A DNA stretch of 43,467 nucleotides from Candidatus Saccharimonadota bacterium (GTDB lineage Bacteria; Patescibacteriota; Saccharimonadia; Saccharimonadales; UBA4665). The stretch is from NCBI GenBank assembly GCA_025927415.1, contig JAICLK010000004.1, positions 1 to 43,467 on the forward strand, read 5' to 3'. The position numbers and the translations under genes were made by a program. The notes beneath the pieces were generated by a model, which was not told the origin of the DNA, searched no databases, and saw only the letters and a list, made by a program, of their open reading frames with translations. The stretch's first letter is position 1; each line of letters begins with the position of its first letter. Below are positions 23,102 to 42,003 of this stretch, in pieces.

Positions 23102-24205
23102 TTGCAGACGTTCGAGCATCCGGCCAGAACCTATGGGCGGCTACAAAAGCGGTTCCGTTTGAAGTCGATACGCCGCCGTGCGGTTCGTTATTCACTTGTT
23201 GCTGGTAATGTGCTGTTGCTGGCGGTAATTGCGACGTTTGTGGTGTATTCGCGTAGTAATAGTACTGCGATCAAAACGTCGGTTTCTGCAGTGGCAGATG
23301 CGAACTCCCAGAGTGCGCTGGACCCGCTAGACCAATTGTCTTCGGCAGATATTGCGGTGAATGTGGCTCGCGCAACCAACTTGGCCGAGGCTACGGCCGT
23401 TACTAACCAGGCAGAATCGGTGCACGCGCAACTGGCCATTACGCAATCCTCGGACAGCCTCATTGCCAAGCCGCAAGTGGTGGCAAGTGCGTTTAAATCC
23501 AGCAAAGACATCCAGCTGTATTATGTGAAGTCTGGTGAGTCGGTGCAAAGCATCGCAGCGAAGTTCGACATTACTTCGGACAGTGTGCGTTGGTCGAATA
23601 ATTTGGAGGGCGATACGGTTTCACCCGGCCAGAAACTGTACATTCCACCGGTGAATGGCATTGTGTATGTGGTAAAGTCTGGTGACACGCCGGCAAGTCT
23701 GGCGTCAACCTATAGTGCGAACAAGCAGCTCATTATTGCCTATAACGATGCCGAGCTTACCGGCTTGCACGTTGGCGCGCGGATTCTCATTCCGAATGGC
23801 CAACCACCAAGCGTAAGCAATAGCAATGCCAGCGCCACCAGTAGTCTGGCTGGCGGATTTGCGTGGGGAAGTACGCCAGTGTATGGCTACAACGGCTACG
23901 ATTATGGTTATTGCACTTGGTATGTGGCAACGCAAGTTTCGGTGCCGGCAAACTGGGGTAATGCCGCGACATGGGCGTATTATGCGGCGCAAGAAGGCTG
24001 GACGGTTAGCTCTCGACCAAGTGTCGGTGCAATTGCCGAGACGCCAAACGCAGCCGGCGGCGAAGGACATGTGGCCATGGTGCGCGGCGTTTCGTCGGAC
24101 GGCAGCAAGGTGCTTATCCAAGACATGAACGGTATTGCCGGCTGGGGTCAGGTTGGCGAGGCTTGGCAAGCGACGTCGGAGTATCCGAACTACATTACGC
24201 ACTAG
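23102..24205 (+). CDS. LysM + CHAP domain peptidoglycan hydrolase-like protein (start uncertain)
   Basis: Two LysM-like repeats (YYVKSGESVQSIAAKF, YVVKSGDTPASLASTY) and CHAP domain (YGYCTWYVATQ...GEGHVAMVRGV). Track start is TTG. Confidence 0.85.
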   Translation: MQTFEHPARTYGRLQKRFRLKSIRRRAVRYSLVAGNVLLLAVIATFVVYSRSNSTAIKTSVSAVADANSQSALDPLDQLSSADIAVNVARATNLAEATAVTNQAESVHAQLAITQSSDSLIAKPQVVASAFKSSKDIQLYYVKSGESVQSIAAKFDITSDSVRWSNNLEGDTVSPGQKLYIPPVNGIVYVVKSGDTPASLASTYSANKQLIIAYNDAELTGLHVGARILIPNGQPPSVSNSNASATSSLAGGFAWGSTPVYGYNGYDYGYCTWYVATQVSVPANWGNAATWAYYAAQEGWTVSSRPSVGAIAETPNAAGGEGHVAMVRGVSSDGSKVLIQDMNGIAGWGQVGEAWQATSEYPNYITH

Positions 24206-24314: not shown

Positions 24315-25589
24315 ATGAACTTCATTGATAAGGTTACGGTTTTGATTACCGCTGGTGACGGTGGTGATGGCGCGACGAGTTTTCGGCATGAAAAATTTGT
24401 CGATCGTGGCGGCCCGGACGGCGGCGATGGTGGCGATGGTGGCGACGTAGTTTTTGTAGCAACCAGAAACGAGAACACGCTGGCAAGCTTTCGTTACCAG
24501 AAAGAATTAAAAGCCGACAATGGCCAAGCCGGCAGCAAGCGCCGCAGGCATGGCAAAAGCGCCGACGATTTACGGGTCGCCGTGCCCGTGGGCACAGTGG
24601 TGGCGAGTGAAGATGGTACAGTCCTAGCAGATCTCGCCATCGACGAGCAAGAAGCGGTTATTGCCCGCGGCGGCAAGGGCGGTTTTGGCAACGCGCACTT
24701 TGTCAGCTCCACCAGACAGGCACCAAATTTTGCCGAAAAGGGCGAAGCGGGTGAGGTGGTAACCACGCTGCTAGAGCTGAAGATGATTGCTGACGTTGGC
24801 CTGGTTGGCCTGCCCAACGCCGGCAAATCCACACTGCTCTCACGCATTAGCAACGCTCGGCCAGAGATCGCCGACTATCCGTTCACGACACTCACCCCAA
24901 ACCTTGGTGTGGTAGACATCGACAAGCGTTCGAGTTTGCTGTTTGCCGACATTCCGGGTCTCATTGAAGGCGCGGCCCAAGGTAAAGGGCTGGGCCACGA
25001 ATTTCTGCGCCACATCGAGCGCACGAAAGTGCTCATCCATCTCATCGACGCCTATAACGAAGATATTGTCGACGCCTACAAAACCATCCAGGCTGAGCTG
25101 AAGTCATACAAAACGGCTCTGGACCATCGCCCGCAGCTCGTCGCACTGAATAAGATTGACGGCTTGGACGATGACATTGCCAAGGATTTGCAGGCCAAGC
25201 TGCGCAAGATCGTGCCAGTCGATACTCCGTTGTTTGTTATTTCTACCCAGTCCGGCAAAGGTGTGCAGGAGTTGCTGTATGCGGTAAAGGCGGCGGTAGA
25301 CAAGCAGAAGCAGGTCCATCCAGCAGAGGATGAAGTTGAAGAAGTGGTGCCGGTGCTCAGGCTGCAGAATGCTGAAAAGGCCTGGACGGTGACGGCTGAG
25401 AAAAATACCTTTGTGATAACAGGCACGAGAATTGAAAAATTTGCGGCTCGAACCGACTTTGCCAATGAGCAAGGCTTGCGCCGGCTGCGCGACATCATGC
25501 AAAAAATGGGCATCATGCACGAACTGGCCCGCAAGGGTGCCAGAGCTGGTGCAACCATCAAAATTGGCCCCCAGCAATTCGAACTGTAG
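24315..25589 (+). CDS. obgE: GTPase ObgE/CgtA
   Basis: Glycine-rich Obg domain, GLVGLPNAGKSTLLSRIS, DIPGLIEGAAQGKGLGHEFLRHIERTKVLIHLID. Confidence 0.96.
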   Translation: MNFIDKVTVLITAGDGGDGATSFRHEKFVDRGGPDGGDGGDGGDVVFVATRNENTLASFRYQKELKADNGQAGSKRRRHGKSADDLRVAVPVGTVVASEDGTVLADLAIDEQEAVIARGGKGGFGNAHFVSSTRQAPNFAEKGEAGEVVTTLLELKMIADVGLVGLPNAGKSTLLSRISNARPEIADYPFTTLTPNLGVVDIDKRSSLLFADIPGLIEGAAQGKGLGHEFLRHIERTKVLIHLIDAYNEDIVDAYKTIQAELKSYKTALDHRPQLVALNKIDGLDDDIAKDLQAKLRKIVPVDTPLFVISTQSGKGVQELLYAVKAAVDKQKQVHPAEDEVEEVVPVLRLQNAEKAWTVTAEKNTFVITGTRIEKFAARTDFANEQGLRRLRDIMQKMGIMHELARKGARAGATIKIGPQQFEL

Positions 25590-25672
25590 TAACATCCACC
25601 TTCTGACATCATGTGTACTTTGTTGCCGCAGGGTAGGCCCAAAAAAGCCAGTGTTATTTCTTCAAATCACTA

Positions 25673-25701
25673 TTGACTTTCGTGTCCTTTTAGTATATAA
25701 T
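25673..25701 (+). promoter_or_regulatory. Sigma70-type promoter of the structured region
   Basis: TTGACT (25673-25678), 17-nt spacer, TATAAT (25696-25701). Confidence 0.75.
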
Positions 25702-25707
25702 GCAACA

Positions 25708-26504
25708 ACCATCAGTTAGAGAGACTTTTCTTGCTGGTCGGCACATTCACAAGTTAGCTAGCGATTCCCTTTCTGGTGAGCTACTTGCAGCTACAATTTT
25801 GGCTGCAGCTATGCTCACCAGAAGAACGGTGGAGCACCCTGAAAAGTCGGCGCATTGCGTGCGACAAAACATTCTGGAAGGAGGACGCGACTTGCGAAGA
25901 CAGATGCATTCACTGACGAAGTTCTGATGAAGCACCGGCGCGATCGCCTCCCTGCCTAACGACTGCAATGTGAGAGGGCGGTGTACTTGTACACGCGATT
26001 CATCCAGTCGACGTAAGGAGTCCCCCGAGGCTCATTCCTGCGAGAGCAGAAAGGAAATAGGTCGGGGACTATGAGCGGTTTTGTCTTACCGAGTAACTAA
26101 CTGTTACAACTGAATAGTCGGCAGGCGTCTGCAACATCGCGTTCAGACGCCAAGAGGAAGGTGCTAACCACGACGCCCAGTATGTAGCCTAGCAGCACGA
26201 GTATGTGCAGCCCTACAGAACACCGTCTGGACACACCTAGGAGTCTACGCTCCCTCGAGCACCCACCCACGAAGGCGTTTTTACAGCGCGCGCGTGGCTG
26301 GAAGCCGACATAAAAGTGACGACCGGCGAGGCGATTGAGATAAGAGATATGGGTCACCCCGTAACCGATATCTCCGAATATGAGAAACCATTCCCCCGTG
26401 GCTATCATTTCTCGCGCCTCCCGGTTCGTCCGCCCCCCACCATTTTCGCTAGCTAACTTGTTTTACTTTTTCTGACGATAGGCATCCCGAAAGGGGTGTT
26501 TTTT
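25708..26504 (+). ncRNA. Putative large structured non-coding RNA (~0.8 kb)
   Basis: No convincing CDS; near-consensus promoter upstream, terminator at the end; perfect 15-bp long-range complementarity 25750-25764 / 26446-26460 and many nested local helices. Confidence 0.65.
26482..26504 (+). terminator. Rho-independent terminator with GAAA loop
   Basis: GCATCCC-GAAA-GGGGTG-TTTTTT. Confidence 0.85.
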
Positions 26505-26530
26505 GTTGGTTTTACGGTATGCTAGTACAT

Positions 26531-27979
26531 ATGGCCGGGCCAACTTTCTTTTTTTATGACCTAGAGACGAGTGGCATTAGCGCGCGCGACGCGCGAATTA
26601 TGCAGTTTGCCGGCCAGCGCACCGACATGGACTTGCGGCCAATCGGCAAACCAGAAAACCATCTCATCAAGCTAACCGACGACATTCTGCCGGACCCAGA
26701 TGCCATTTTAATAACCGGCATCACGCCGCAAAAAACGCGCGAAGAAGGCGTAACCGAGGCCGAGTTTTTGCAATACTTTGCCAGCCACATTGCCACCAAA
26801 GACACTATTTTTGTCGGCTACAACACCATTCGGTTTGATGATGAATTTATGCGCTACCTTCACTACCGTAATTTTTATGATGCGTACGAGTGGCAATGGA
26901 AGGACGGCCGCGGTCGCTGGGATTTGCTGGACGTTGTGCGCATGACGCGCGCTCTGCGGCCAGAAGGCATTGAGTGGCCGTTTGCGCCGAACGGTAAGCC
27001 AAGTAACCGGCTGGAGCTGCTGACTGCCGTGAACAAACTCAGCCACGAAAACGCGCACGACGCACTGGCCGACGTGAACGCTACCATCGCCGTGGCTAAC
27101 CTCATCAAAACCAAGCAGCCCAAACTCTTCAACTTTTTGTTGGATATGCGCGACAAGAAAAAGGCGGCTGCGCTAGTCGGTGCCGGCCAGCCCTTTGTGT
27201 ACAGCTCGGGCAAATATCCCGGCAAGTACGAACATGCCACCGTGGCTGTCATGTTGGCTAAGCATCCGCAAAAACAAGGTGCGTTAGTGTACGATCTGCG
27301 CATTGATCCGGGCGAGTTTTTGGGCATGAGTGCAGTCGAGCTAGCCGAGCGTTGGAAGTTCACGCGTGAAGACAATGCGCCCACGCGGCTGCCAATCAAG
27401 ACGCTGCAATACAATCGCTGTCCAGCCGTAGCGCCGCTGAGTGTGCTGGATGAAGCCAGCCAAACACGGCTGCAGTTGGATATGAAAGTGGTGGAAGCCA
27501 ATCGTAAAAAGCTGGCGGCTGCGCAAGGTTTTGCACTGAAAGTTTTGGAAGCGCTGGATTTGCTGGAGCAAAAGCGGCAGGCAGAACTCATTAATGACGA
27601 CCGCCACGTCGATTCGCAATTGTACGATGGTTTTATAAGCGATGCCGACAAAAATGTCATGCGTGTTGTGCGCGCAGCCGAACCTAGCGACCTTGCCAGC
27701 CTGGAGCCAAACCTGCACGACGCCCGACTCAAAGCTCTACTGCCACTCTATAAAGCACGTAATTTTCCAGCGGCGATGACGGGCGAAGAGCGAGAAAATT
27801 GGGAGCAGTTTTGTGCGCAGCGGTTAGTAGGCGGTGGCGCCAAAAGTCGTCTCGCAAAGTATTTTCAGCACTTGCAAGAGCTGGCGAATCAACCTGGTAT
27901 TACGCAAAATCAGCAGTATTTACTGGAAGAACTCCAGCTGTACGGGCAGAGTATTATGCCTGCTGAAGCCAACGAATAA
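26531..27979 (+). CDS. sbcB: Exodeoxyribonuclease I
   Basis: FFFYDLETSGISARDARIMQFAGQRTD, FVGYNTIRFDDEFMRYLHYRNFYDAYEWQW, ENAHDALADVNATIAVA. ORF opens at 26519; TATGCT (26518-26523) suggests start at 26531. Confidence 0.92.
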   Translation: MAGPTFFFYDLETSGISARDARIMQFAGQRTDMDLRPIGKPENHLIKLTDDILPDPDAILITGITPQKTREEGVTEAEFLQYFASHIATKDTIFVGYNTIRFDDEFMRYLHYRNFYDAYEWQWKDGRGRWDLLDVVRMTRALRPEGIEWPFAPNGKPSNRLELLTAVNKLSHENAHDALADVNATIAVANLIKTKQPKLFNFLLDMRDKKKAAALVGAGQPFVYSSGKYPGKYEHATVAVMLAKHPQKQGALVYDLRIDPGEFLGMSAVELAERWKFTREDNAPTRLPIKTLQYNRCPAVAPLSVLDEASQTRLQLDMKVVEANRKKLAAAQGFALKVLEALDLLEQKRQAELINDDRHVDSQLYDGFISDADKNVMRVVRAAEPSDLASLEPNLHDARLKALLPLYKARNFPAAMTGEERENWEQFCAQRLVGGGAKSRLAKYFQHLQELANQPGITQNQQYLLEELQLYGQSIMPAEANE

Positions 27980-40505: not shown

Positions 40506-40722
40506 CCGTGGCTGAAGCTACGCTAGAAAGTTGCGTGCGGCGCGGAGGTTGGCAGCACTGCTGTCCGCATCCGCGCCTGCTACGCGTTCGTGCCCTACCC
40601 AATTTCCTTTCCCCCTCCTTCCTCTCGCACTCGTTTCAAAATCTGCTCTTTTTTATGAACTTGGTGTATCGTGCAACGTCGTTTGGCATCGTCGACGAAG
40701 AGCGAATTTTATGATAAAGTAA

Positions 40723-40868
40723 GTGCACTTCGTTGAGGTGGAAACTTCCGAGGTACATTGACAAGCAGACAGTTTTGCAAAGTAGGAACCAGGGCTATAA
40801 AAGTAGCCTTGCTTCCTGCTTTGCAGGAAAAGAGAATACGCAATCCAATCTCTCTAAAGGGAGAAAAG
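40723..40868 (+). ncRNA. Riboswitch-like structured 5' element, copy B
   Basis: GCACTTCG/CGAGGTAC helix enclosing GAGGT-GGAA-ACTTC hairpin, AAGCAGA linker, then AGTAGGAACCAGGGCT/AGCCTTGCTTCCTGCT hairpin; TATGAT box just upstream. Confidence 0.6.
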
Positions 40869-40869
40869 A

Positions 40870-41133
40870 ATGAGTAAGCGCGACAATGGTCAGCGTGCAC
40901 GAACCGAGCAGGGATACCAGCGCGAGTTGGAGGGTCTCCGGCGTAGTGGTCAGAGTGACTTGTGCGCCTATGTCCGTCCTCCGGGCGCGATTCCCGATAT
41001 ACCACCACCAGAGTACCTGGAGCGCCAAGCGACCAGCCAGACCAGCATGAAGGAAGCCATACCGAAGGCTGAGCGCTGCAAGGACTGTGGCTACCTACTC
41101 ACCGCATCCGGACACGAGGTCAGTTGTGGCTGA
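40870..41133 (+). CDS. Small protein with C-terminal Cys motif (CKDCGYLLTASGHEVSCG)
   Basis: ATG preceded by GGGAGAAAAGA; next gene overlaps its stop. Confidence 0.55.
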   Translation: MSKRDNGQRARTEQGYQRELEGLRRSGQSDLCAYVRPPGAIPDIPPPEYLERQATSQTSMKEAIPKAERCKDCGYLLTASGHEVSCG

Positions 41134-41479
41134 TGAGGATGAAGTGAGTGTTACGCTCACGGAAAGGGCATCTGCCAAGGTGGCGGAGTTGCTGGCAGAA
41201 GAGAGCGAGCGCTACCCTGGGCGGAACCTGAGGCTGCGTATTGCTGTCCAACCTGGCGGCTGCTCCGGCCTGCGGTATAATCTCCATTTCGACGAGCGTT
41301 CGCTCGACGGTGACACTGCCACCGACTGCGACGGCGTCGAGGTGGTAGTGGACAAAATGTCCGCTCCGTACCTCGAAGGTGCGACCATCGACTTCGTCGA
41401 CACACTCGAGAAGATGGGCTTCACCATCGACAACCCAAATGCCGGCGGCACCTGCGCCTGCGGCGACTCGTTCCATTAG
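41126..41479 (+). CDS. A-type iron-sulfur carrier (IscA/ErpA/HesB-like), GTG start
   Basis: VTLTERASAKVAELL...LRIAVQPGGCSGLRYNLHFDE...VDFVDTLEKMGFTIDNPNAGGTCACGDSF with the three expected Cys (GGCSG, CAC). Confidence 0.85.
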   Translation: MADEDEVSVTLTERASAKVAELLAEESERYPGRNLRLRIAVQPGGCSGLRYNLHFDERSLDGDTATDCDGVEVVVDKMSAPYLEGATIDFVDTLEKMGFTIDNPNAGGTCACGDSFH

Positions 41480-41496
41480 ATCGAAGGAGACAGAAG

Positions 41497-41859
41497 ATGA
41501 CCTTCTCCAGAGTATTCAAACGCATTCTATGCGTTCTTCTCGCTCCGGTGATCATCGCCGTCGGCGCGGTCATCACGGCCATCACCATACCAATCGCCAT
41601 ACTCGTGTTCGTTGTGTGGCGTCCGGGAGACCCATGGCCTGGCGACATCCTCGCCTTGGGGCCTTCGCTCGTCGGTGCTGCCTTCCTCGGTCTGTGGGGA
41701 AATGTGCCTGCGATCTTCAAGTCGTGCGAGCATCCAAATCGGGTGAATGACGACGGCATGTGGTACGACCCAGAGGACGGTTACGCATACCGCTGGAGCT
41801 GCCCCGACTGCAAGAAGGAGTGGTTCGAGAACATCGGTCACTTCGATATTCCTCTCTAG
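41497..41859 (+). CDS. Membrane protein with C-terminal CxxC segment
   Basis: Two hydrophobic segments, then CEHPN...WSCPDCKKEW; GAAGGAGACAG upstream. Confidence 0.55.
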   Translation: MTFSRVFKRILCVLLAPVIIAVGAVITAITIPIAILVFVVWRPGDPWPGDILALGPSLVGAAFLGLWGNVPAIFKSCEHPNRVNDDGMWYDPEDGYAYRWSCPDCKKEWFENIGHFDIPL

Positions 41860-41873
41860 TTTTACATGTGCGT

Positions 41874-41920
41874 GGCGGCGTGGTGCGCTTTTTAGGCATC
41901 ACGCCCGCCCGCGTGTTTTT
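41874..41920 (+). terminator. Terminator closing the small-gene island
   Basis: GGCGGCGTGGTG...CATCACGCCCGCC followed by GCGTGTTTTT. Confidence 0.7.
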
Positions 41921-42003
41921 CTTTCAATCGTCTGCTGTCAATGTTTTGCTTTCTATGAGTGTGTGCTCATGCTGACGAGCTCAAAAGAGCGAAAAGGCGT
42001 AAA

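Follow-up and report, generated by a model that had tools for sequence, protein, structure and literature searches.

Several large structured RNAs of bacteria, including GOLLD, ROOL and OLE (Rfam; PMC12286853), are comparable in size, closed multi-branch layout and lack of a long ORF to an RNA of about 0.8 kb predicted between obg and sbcB in a Candidatus Saccharimonadota genome. The window analysed here is the whole stretch of 43,467 nucleotides around it (contig JAICLK010000004.1). GOLLD also has a variable region, as do the RNAs that we name paired-end RNA cassettes, a Saccharibacteria family with a fixed frame whose existence, inferred from sequence alone, is very likely. However, the cassettes differ from GOLLD, ROOL and OLE in having no Rfam match, no adjacent tRNAs and an unconserved interior, in carrying payload ORFs in relatives and in having been seen here only in Saccharibacteria. 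Dual-function RNAs such as staphylococcal RNAIII are about 0.5-0.8 kb long, with paired ends and a small ORF led by a Shine-Dalgarno (SD) sequence within the structure. The 0.8-kb RNA shares their size, paired ends and SD-led small ORF, whereas the cassettes are set apart by a fixed frame with exchangeable payload, GC-rich foreign codons and, in some members, hammerhead-like 3' ends. Inference from the sequence places the 0.8-kb RNA close to a dual-function structured RNA in outline and in no known family.

A further structured RNA of the same bacteria, lysM-TM7 RNA (RF03005), lies upstream in relatives' loci, but is smaller, cis-regulatory and unrelated in sequence to the cassettes. It was recorded at positions 30-490 of loci L099, L105, L119, L121, L123, L124, L126, L131, L140, L144 and L145, and the LysM gene of the window itself (23102-24205) gave no match. 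To our knowledge, no RNA family combines a conserved closed frame with an exchangeable payload that partly codes in the codon usage of another organism, and no published description of such RNAs was found in the open-access literature searched.

Exclusion of known RNA families

Comparison with Rfam 15 families gave no gathering-level match to OLE, ROOL or GOLLD anywhere in the window and none at E <= 5 over 25500-26600. The tmRNA and group II intron models did not match at the 0.8-kb RNA, no tRNA family reached the gathering level in the window and no DNA match to the RNA was found among phage records. The setting characteristic of ROOL and GOLLD (tRNA vicinity or phage) is absent, the 0.8-kb RNA being located between obg and sbcB. 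RNase P RNA (RF00010) was not matched in the window, and its gene is absent from the source assembly (76% complete). Since this model matched in 28 of the 31 genomes searched (best E about 1e-87; relatives at about 1e-80), an RNase P RNA resembling those of relatives would have been recognised in the window, and this identity was excluded for the 0.8-kb RNA. A hammerhead was also sought in the 0.8-kb RNA, where CUGACGA and GAAA follow the 3' arm of the closing helix, but stems I and III are missing and Rfam gave no match.

Locus and predicted fold of the 0.8-kb RNA

The flanking genes were verified as obg (24315-25589) upstream and sbcB, encoding exonuclease I (26519-27979), downstream, leaving an intergenic gap of 929 nt that contains a promoter and a terminator and no long ORF (Table 1). 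The longest ORFs of the 0.8-kb region span 75 aa on the forward strand and 103 aa on the reverse strand; neither has a Pfam match, and the ATG of the former falls within the promoter. Translation of the SD-led micro-ORF is predicted only, and its SD AAGGAGGA is partly base-paired in the predicted fold. Most relatives carry the same promoter type directly downstream of obg.

Table 1. Positions of the predicted elements of the 0.8-kb RNA and of the second copy, numbered from the first letter of the window.
Feature	Position	Strand	Remarks
Sigma-70-type promoter, TTGACT-17-TATAAT	25673-25701	+	11/12 consensus matches
P0 leader hairpin	25709-25741	+	R2/R3 match 25705-25753, 45.9 and 46.9 bits
Conserved motif ACAUUNACAAG, running into closing helix	25743-25753	+	common to family leaders
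P1 closing helix, 5' arm	25749-25764	+	16 bp with 26446-26461; mean pair probability 0.98; 0/60 shuffles
P2, long hairpin directly inside P1	25770-25824	+	z = -6.4
Inner closing helix GGUGG	25828-25832	+	with CCACC 26437-26441; p 0.95; single-sequence prediction
SD AAGGAGGA and UUG-initiated 11-codon micro-ORF (MRRQMHSLTKF)	25878-25927	+	strong SD; ORF 25892-25927
Motif ACAACUGAAUAG	26106-26117	+	exact copy in L131
Middle multi-branch domain	26117-26309	+	closing pairs 26117-26122/26304-26309, p 0.95
P3-like 3' domain ahead of P1 3' arm	26318-26430	+	z = -5.4
P1 closing helix, 3' arm	26446-26461	+	pairs with 25749-25764; compensatory replacement across 20 members
Intrinsic terminator	26480-26506	+	stem 26480-26501 plus U-tract; 26476-26506 z = -5.0
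Second-copy leader	40722-40765	+	R3 37.5 bits, E 5e-5; independent R2 21.8 bits, E 0.027
Second-copy P1, 5' arm	40756-40770	+	pairs with 41930-41943, one bulge
Second-copy P2 hairpin	40779-40822	+	z = -7.3
Enclosed ORF, 87 aa	40870-41133	+	no family match; GC-ending two-fold codons 25:7
Enclosed ORF, ErpA-type Fe-S insertion protein	41126-41479	+	Fe-S_biosyn E 1e-20
Enclosed ORF, 120 aa	41497-41859	+	no family match; GC-ending two-fold codons 30:6
Second-copy P1, 3' arm	41930-41943	+	pairs with 40756-40770
Hammerhead type III-like ribozyme motif	41946-42000	+	directly after 3' arm, before uvrC; RF00008 27.1 bits, E 5e-4, gathering score 48.5

The predicted transcript of ~800 nt folds with an MFE z of -5.9, a value that no shuffle reached (0/20), and a repeat with separately made shuffles gave z = -4.7 to -6.4. 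Because the reverse strand of the region folds about as well, the strand was assigned by promoter, terminator and leader and not by energy. The closing helix P1 scored 39 against a maximum of 27.5 for dinucleotide shuffles of the downstream sequence. Support within the enclosed part is uneven: pair probabilities of 0.3-0.6 leave the fold of the 5' domain (25838-26018) poorly determined, and part of the middle domain (26116-26252) reached a z of only -1.1. The motif ACAACUGAAUAG, common to the 0.8-kb RNA and other non-coding members, occurs with <=2 mismatches in 6 of 33 RNAs (expected about 0.02 per RNA). A stable functional transcript is likely, its transcription being predicted and its stability inferred.

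The earlier note on this stretch had described a promoter, a terminator and no convincing ORF between obgE and sbcB, and perfectly pairing ends; sequence analysis bore out both, the ends corresponding to the 16-bp closing helix with its probability of 0.98. Of the helices that it had drawn by eye, the fold upheld P2, AGUCCCC/GGGGACU (p 0.79), GUAAC/GUUAC (0.99), GGCGUCUG/CAGACGCC (p 1.0), GAGAUAU.GGU/ACC.AUAUCUC (p 0.93) and the long-range GACGACCGGCGAGGCG/CGCCUCCCGGUUCGUC (p 0.88-1.0, in the domain with z = -5.4). CGACUG/CAGUCG with GUGUAC/GUACAC, GAGAAA/UUUCUC and the CUGC-GAGA-GCAG hairpin failed, as they are not preferred pairs in the fold.

Related RNAs in the obg-sbcB gap

DNA similarity searches of 93 family genomes, 393 order genomes, phages and plasmids returned no homologue of the 0.8-kb RNA, and a model of its 3' domain built from the single sequence (R1) had no match in any of 80 loci of relatives. 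The genes obg and sbcB are neighbours in many Saccharibacteria, and the gap between them is a variable site. Among 145 unique gaps, 75 are short; others hold ordinary genes, and a third group is ORF-poor with a fold z of about -4 to -13. The ORF-poor gaps share the layout of the window, with a promoter after obg, a leader, a helix and a terminator just upstream of sbcB; the helix, of 9-17 bp, differs in sequence in each genome and encloses 280-780 nt. A strict detector of promoter, helix and terminator was positive in 9/70 gaps (8 distinct, as L248 duplicates L110) and in 0/244 control windows.

The obg-sbcB gap of related genomes (L038-L133) is an insertion hotspot, being short or occupied by one ordinary gene or by RNA cassettes. 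Among individual loci, L284 (1437-2900) has a promoter-RNA-terminator unit repeated three times in tandem in the obg-sbcB gap. A stretch within the second unit resembles a tRNA or tmRNA in reverse complement (RF00023 on the minus strand at E 0.07), although ARAGORN was negative. In L290 (reverse strand, about 600-1500), the cassette is preceded by a transcription unit with a ~200-codon ORF of very high GC3 and a terminal GC-rich hairpin.

Conservation of the leader hairpin

The leader of the 0.8-kb RNA meets the leader criterion of the cassettes, a hairpin with ACAUUNACAAG, at 45.9 bits, its sequence being in the training set of the model. In a MAFFT alignment of nine leaders, both partners had changed in six of 11 pairs; the covariation score was 0.49, compared with 0.06-0.17 when the partner was slid. 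In a 17-leader alignment, covariation was present in 9/11 pairs (0.55 compared with 0.03-0.16 for the slid partner); this alignment was fitted to the model and is hence biased towards it. RNAalifold found no pairs in the first leader alignment because MAFFT had misaligned divergent members; a smaller set worked.

A covariance model of the leader alone recovered further members in the order, some outside the obg-sbcB gap. The window's own leader was used in training both R2 and R3, and R3 was also trained with the second copy, so that scores are partly by construction, and E-values from both models are rough. Matches of R2/R3 within protein genes (L289, L291/L299, L297 and L304; E >= 0.0098) were rejected as false. 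At E <= 0.2, the frame was detected in 22 of 393 genomes, some of those detections being false; found in a minority of genomes, it is therefore not essential to the group. Of 167 phylum genomes sampled, the leader model matched only the source genome, which is to be expected when training is confined to one group.

In L288 and L303, different loci of one genome (G243), leader and P2 are near-identical and the payloads differ, suggesting payload exchange. L286 (G107) carries a leader copy at a place where sbcB is interrupted at its 5' end and where NN runs suggest scaffolding and a possible assembly artefact.

Closing helix and 3' ends across members

The closing helix was tested in 25 leader-defined members with 60 shuffles each, using a leader model that is blind to the 3' arm. 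At the expected place it beat every shuffle in 21 of the 25; a few shuffles reach the candidate P1 of L305, L306 and L296, and L286 has a leader with no convincing closing helix in this test. Nine members, those used for the first leader alignment, had been chosen from gaps partly for a visible closing helix, and the others had not; the newly found loci are thus a cleaner test of P1, and most of them pass too.

Across 20 members, 224/240 pairs of P1 are canonical although the sequence is wholly different in each genome, and individual columns show as many as five pair types; arms swapped between members gave only 39-82% canonical pairs per column. Because P1 had been taken as the best-scoring helix of each member, the fair control here is the shuffle test. 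The place of P2 inside P1 has a family median z of -4.8 compared with an interior median of -0.4. P3, a GC-rich hairpin before the 3' arm, is often present, including in most obg-sbcB relatives (median z -3.5). Downstream of the 3' arm lies either a terminator or a motif resembling the type III hammerhead (RF00008), the latter in L298, L300, L305, L306 and the second copy in the window. Core and stems directly follow the 3' arm in L298, L300, L305 and the second copy; the Rfam matches (E 1e-6 to 5e-4) are below the gathering score, and L306 was recognised by pattern only. This motif is absent from the 0.8-kb RNA, which has a terminator instead and meets the P1, P2 and terminator criteria of the family. 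Interiors do not align between genomes.

Collectively, the lack of an Rfam match, the covariation and the recurrence both in the obg-sbcB gap and at other Saccharibacteria loci support a new class, which the evidence favours over the other option of the earlier note, a divergent known RNA. Of the checks that it had suggested, the Rfam search gave no match even at E <= 5, BLASTN against Saccharibacteria gave no homologue (relatives came from gene order and the leader covariance model) and covariation was seen in homologous RNAs from relatives. Its likening to OLE, GOLLD and ROOL is corrected in that only the frame is conserved, the interior is swapped and ORFs are often present.

Payload and codon use

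In some members the interior has no ORF beyond the micro level, as in the 0.8-kb RNA, and in others it encloses SD-led ORFs of 30-174 aa. Codon use distinguishes these ORFs from their surroundings. In two-fold families, GC-ending codons stand at 357:92 (0.80; 357/449 codons) in enclosed ORFs versus 4459:4893 (0.48; 4459/9352) in flanking genes. In the source genome, seven enclosed ORFs, chosen by their position inside cassettes, gave 196:51 versus 310:366 in obg, sbcB, the rhodanese gene and uvrC (p = 2e-20). In other genomes, cargo genes that occupy the obg-sbcB gap in the absence of the RNA frame have a GC-ending fraction of 0.39. Searches of the enclosed ORFs gave nothing in PADLOC and, except for ErpA, nothing in Pfam, and ARAGORN detected no tRNA in the payloads. 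Enclosed ORFs of L303 (150-672 from the leader), L104 and the second RNA of L283 have secretion-signal-like N-termini of actinobacterial style.

Further candidate copies in the source genome

Four candidate copies were located in the source genome, at 25705, 40722, contig 7:3000 and contig 4:16237; the E-value of the contig 4:16237 copy is 0.5. The second copy (40722-42000) was among the 17 R3 training sequences and not in the R2 training. Its P1 scored 25.5 against a shuffle maximum of 25.0, weaker than in most members. It encloses three ORFs, including one of ErpA type whose start we take to be the GTG at 41126; the nearest relatives of this protein in the plasmid collection are from Microbacterium, Tsukamurella and Nonomuraea at 65-69%, the next being <= 50%. 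The candidate cassettes L305 (contig 7:3000) and L306 (contig 4:16237) both have hammerhead-like 3' ends and enclose ORFs of 108 and 156 aa and membrane-like ORFs of 60 and 80 aa, respectively.

Proposed function and alternative explanations

Anatomy, recurrence, covariation and codon bias are shown from the sequence; the function proposed here is inferred. In our model, the 0.8-kb RNA is a paired-end RNA cassette and would be transcribed independently; in these cassettes P1, P2, P3 and a defined 3' end would close and cap the transcript, conferring nuclease resistance. The leader would be a recognition tag and the payload the active part, a structured RNA with at most a micro-ORF here and SD-led ORFs in others. 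The RNA may reach the actinobacterial host cell during epibiotic contact and act there, the payload of the 0.8-kb RNA being either the folded RNA itself or a micro-peptide.

The host cell is proposed as the most likely site of action because enclosed ORFs depart from the codon use of the genome that carries them and resemble high-GC genes of Actinobacteria. This inference joins the codon signature to lifestyle, as Saccharibacteria live on Actinobacteria and a T4SS was found to be essential in one cultured Saccharibacterium (PMC10633639). For the 0.8-kb RNA it rests on relatives, since a high-GC3 ORF is missing there. Without transcript, protein or transfer data, action of the payload in the host remains tentative, the balance tilting slightly against it, and high GC3 may also reflect recent acquisition of host genes and their expression in the Saccharibacterium. 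The explanation as a whole (a cassette family with a nuclease-resistant frame and a host-acting payload) is favoured by a narrow margin, all evidence being computational.

The main rival, which remains possible, is a stable structured RNA of dual-function type acting inside the Saccharibacterium, with high-GC3 ORFs recently acquired from actinobacterial hosts or phages and expressed locally. It requires no transfer and is consistent with the ErpA of the second copy, nearest to Actinobacteria, and with Saccharibacteria-type promoters and housekeeping-gene surroundings. Against it, many genomes show the GC-ending bias in ORFs of 30-170 aa that are unrelated to one another, and the related pair L119/L123 has retained it despite diverged peptides. 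Codon use is ordinary in protein cargo that occupies the same gap where the RNA frame is missing.

A non-autonomous mobile element, with the P1 arms as terminal inverted repeats and the interior as DNA cargo, is very unlikely. In its favour are inverted repeats that are long and perfect, cargo that varies, copies in tandem (L283, L284) and several loci per genome. Unlike transposon ends, however, the arms vary in sequence between members with pairing retained; the promoter and the 3' end are arranged in a fixed way outside the arms, and the covariation of the leader hairpin is that of an RNA. The arms were also considered as a MITE, which was rejected on covariation. A divergent known large RNA (OLE, ROOL, GOLLD, group II intron, RNase P RNA or tmRNA), suggested by similar size and closed layout, is all but excluded by the empty Rfam search at E <= 5, relatives' RNase P RNAs matching at about 1e-80. 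An origin as the remnant of a protein gene, or as a spacer structured by chance, is practically ruled out as well. A short minus-strand match to the RecG coding sequence at 26303-26327 could be adduced for it, but this similarity covers ~7 residues at E > 1 and z-scores, covariation and synteny contradict the reading. The recurrent weak matches at 26303-26327 were set aside as a single short chance resemblance to the conserved recG on the opposite strand.

Significance

Because Saccharibacteria can be cultured with their hosts and are genetically manipulable (PMC10633639), the cassette model is directly testable where a cultured strain has the locus. A bolder reading, which is possible, is that capped closed-end RNAs delivered to the actinobacterial host constitute an inter-bacterial RNA effector system; its two modes might be structured RNA effectors, such as the 0.8-kb RNA, or mRNAs fitted to the codon usage and ribosome binding of the host. 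If the cassettes act only inside the Saccharibacterium, they would represent a new large RNA class, some with hammerhead-like 3' ends, and would still be of interest. If action in the host is true, they would provide epibiotic Patescibacteria with a means to reprogram the cells that carry them.
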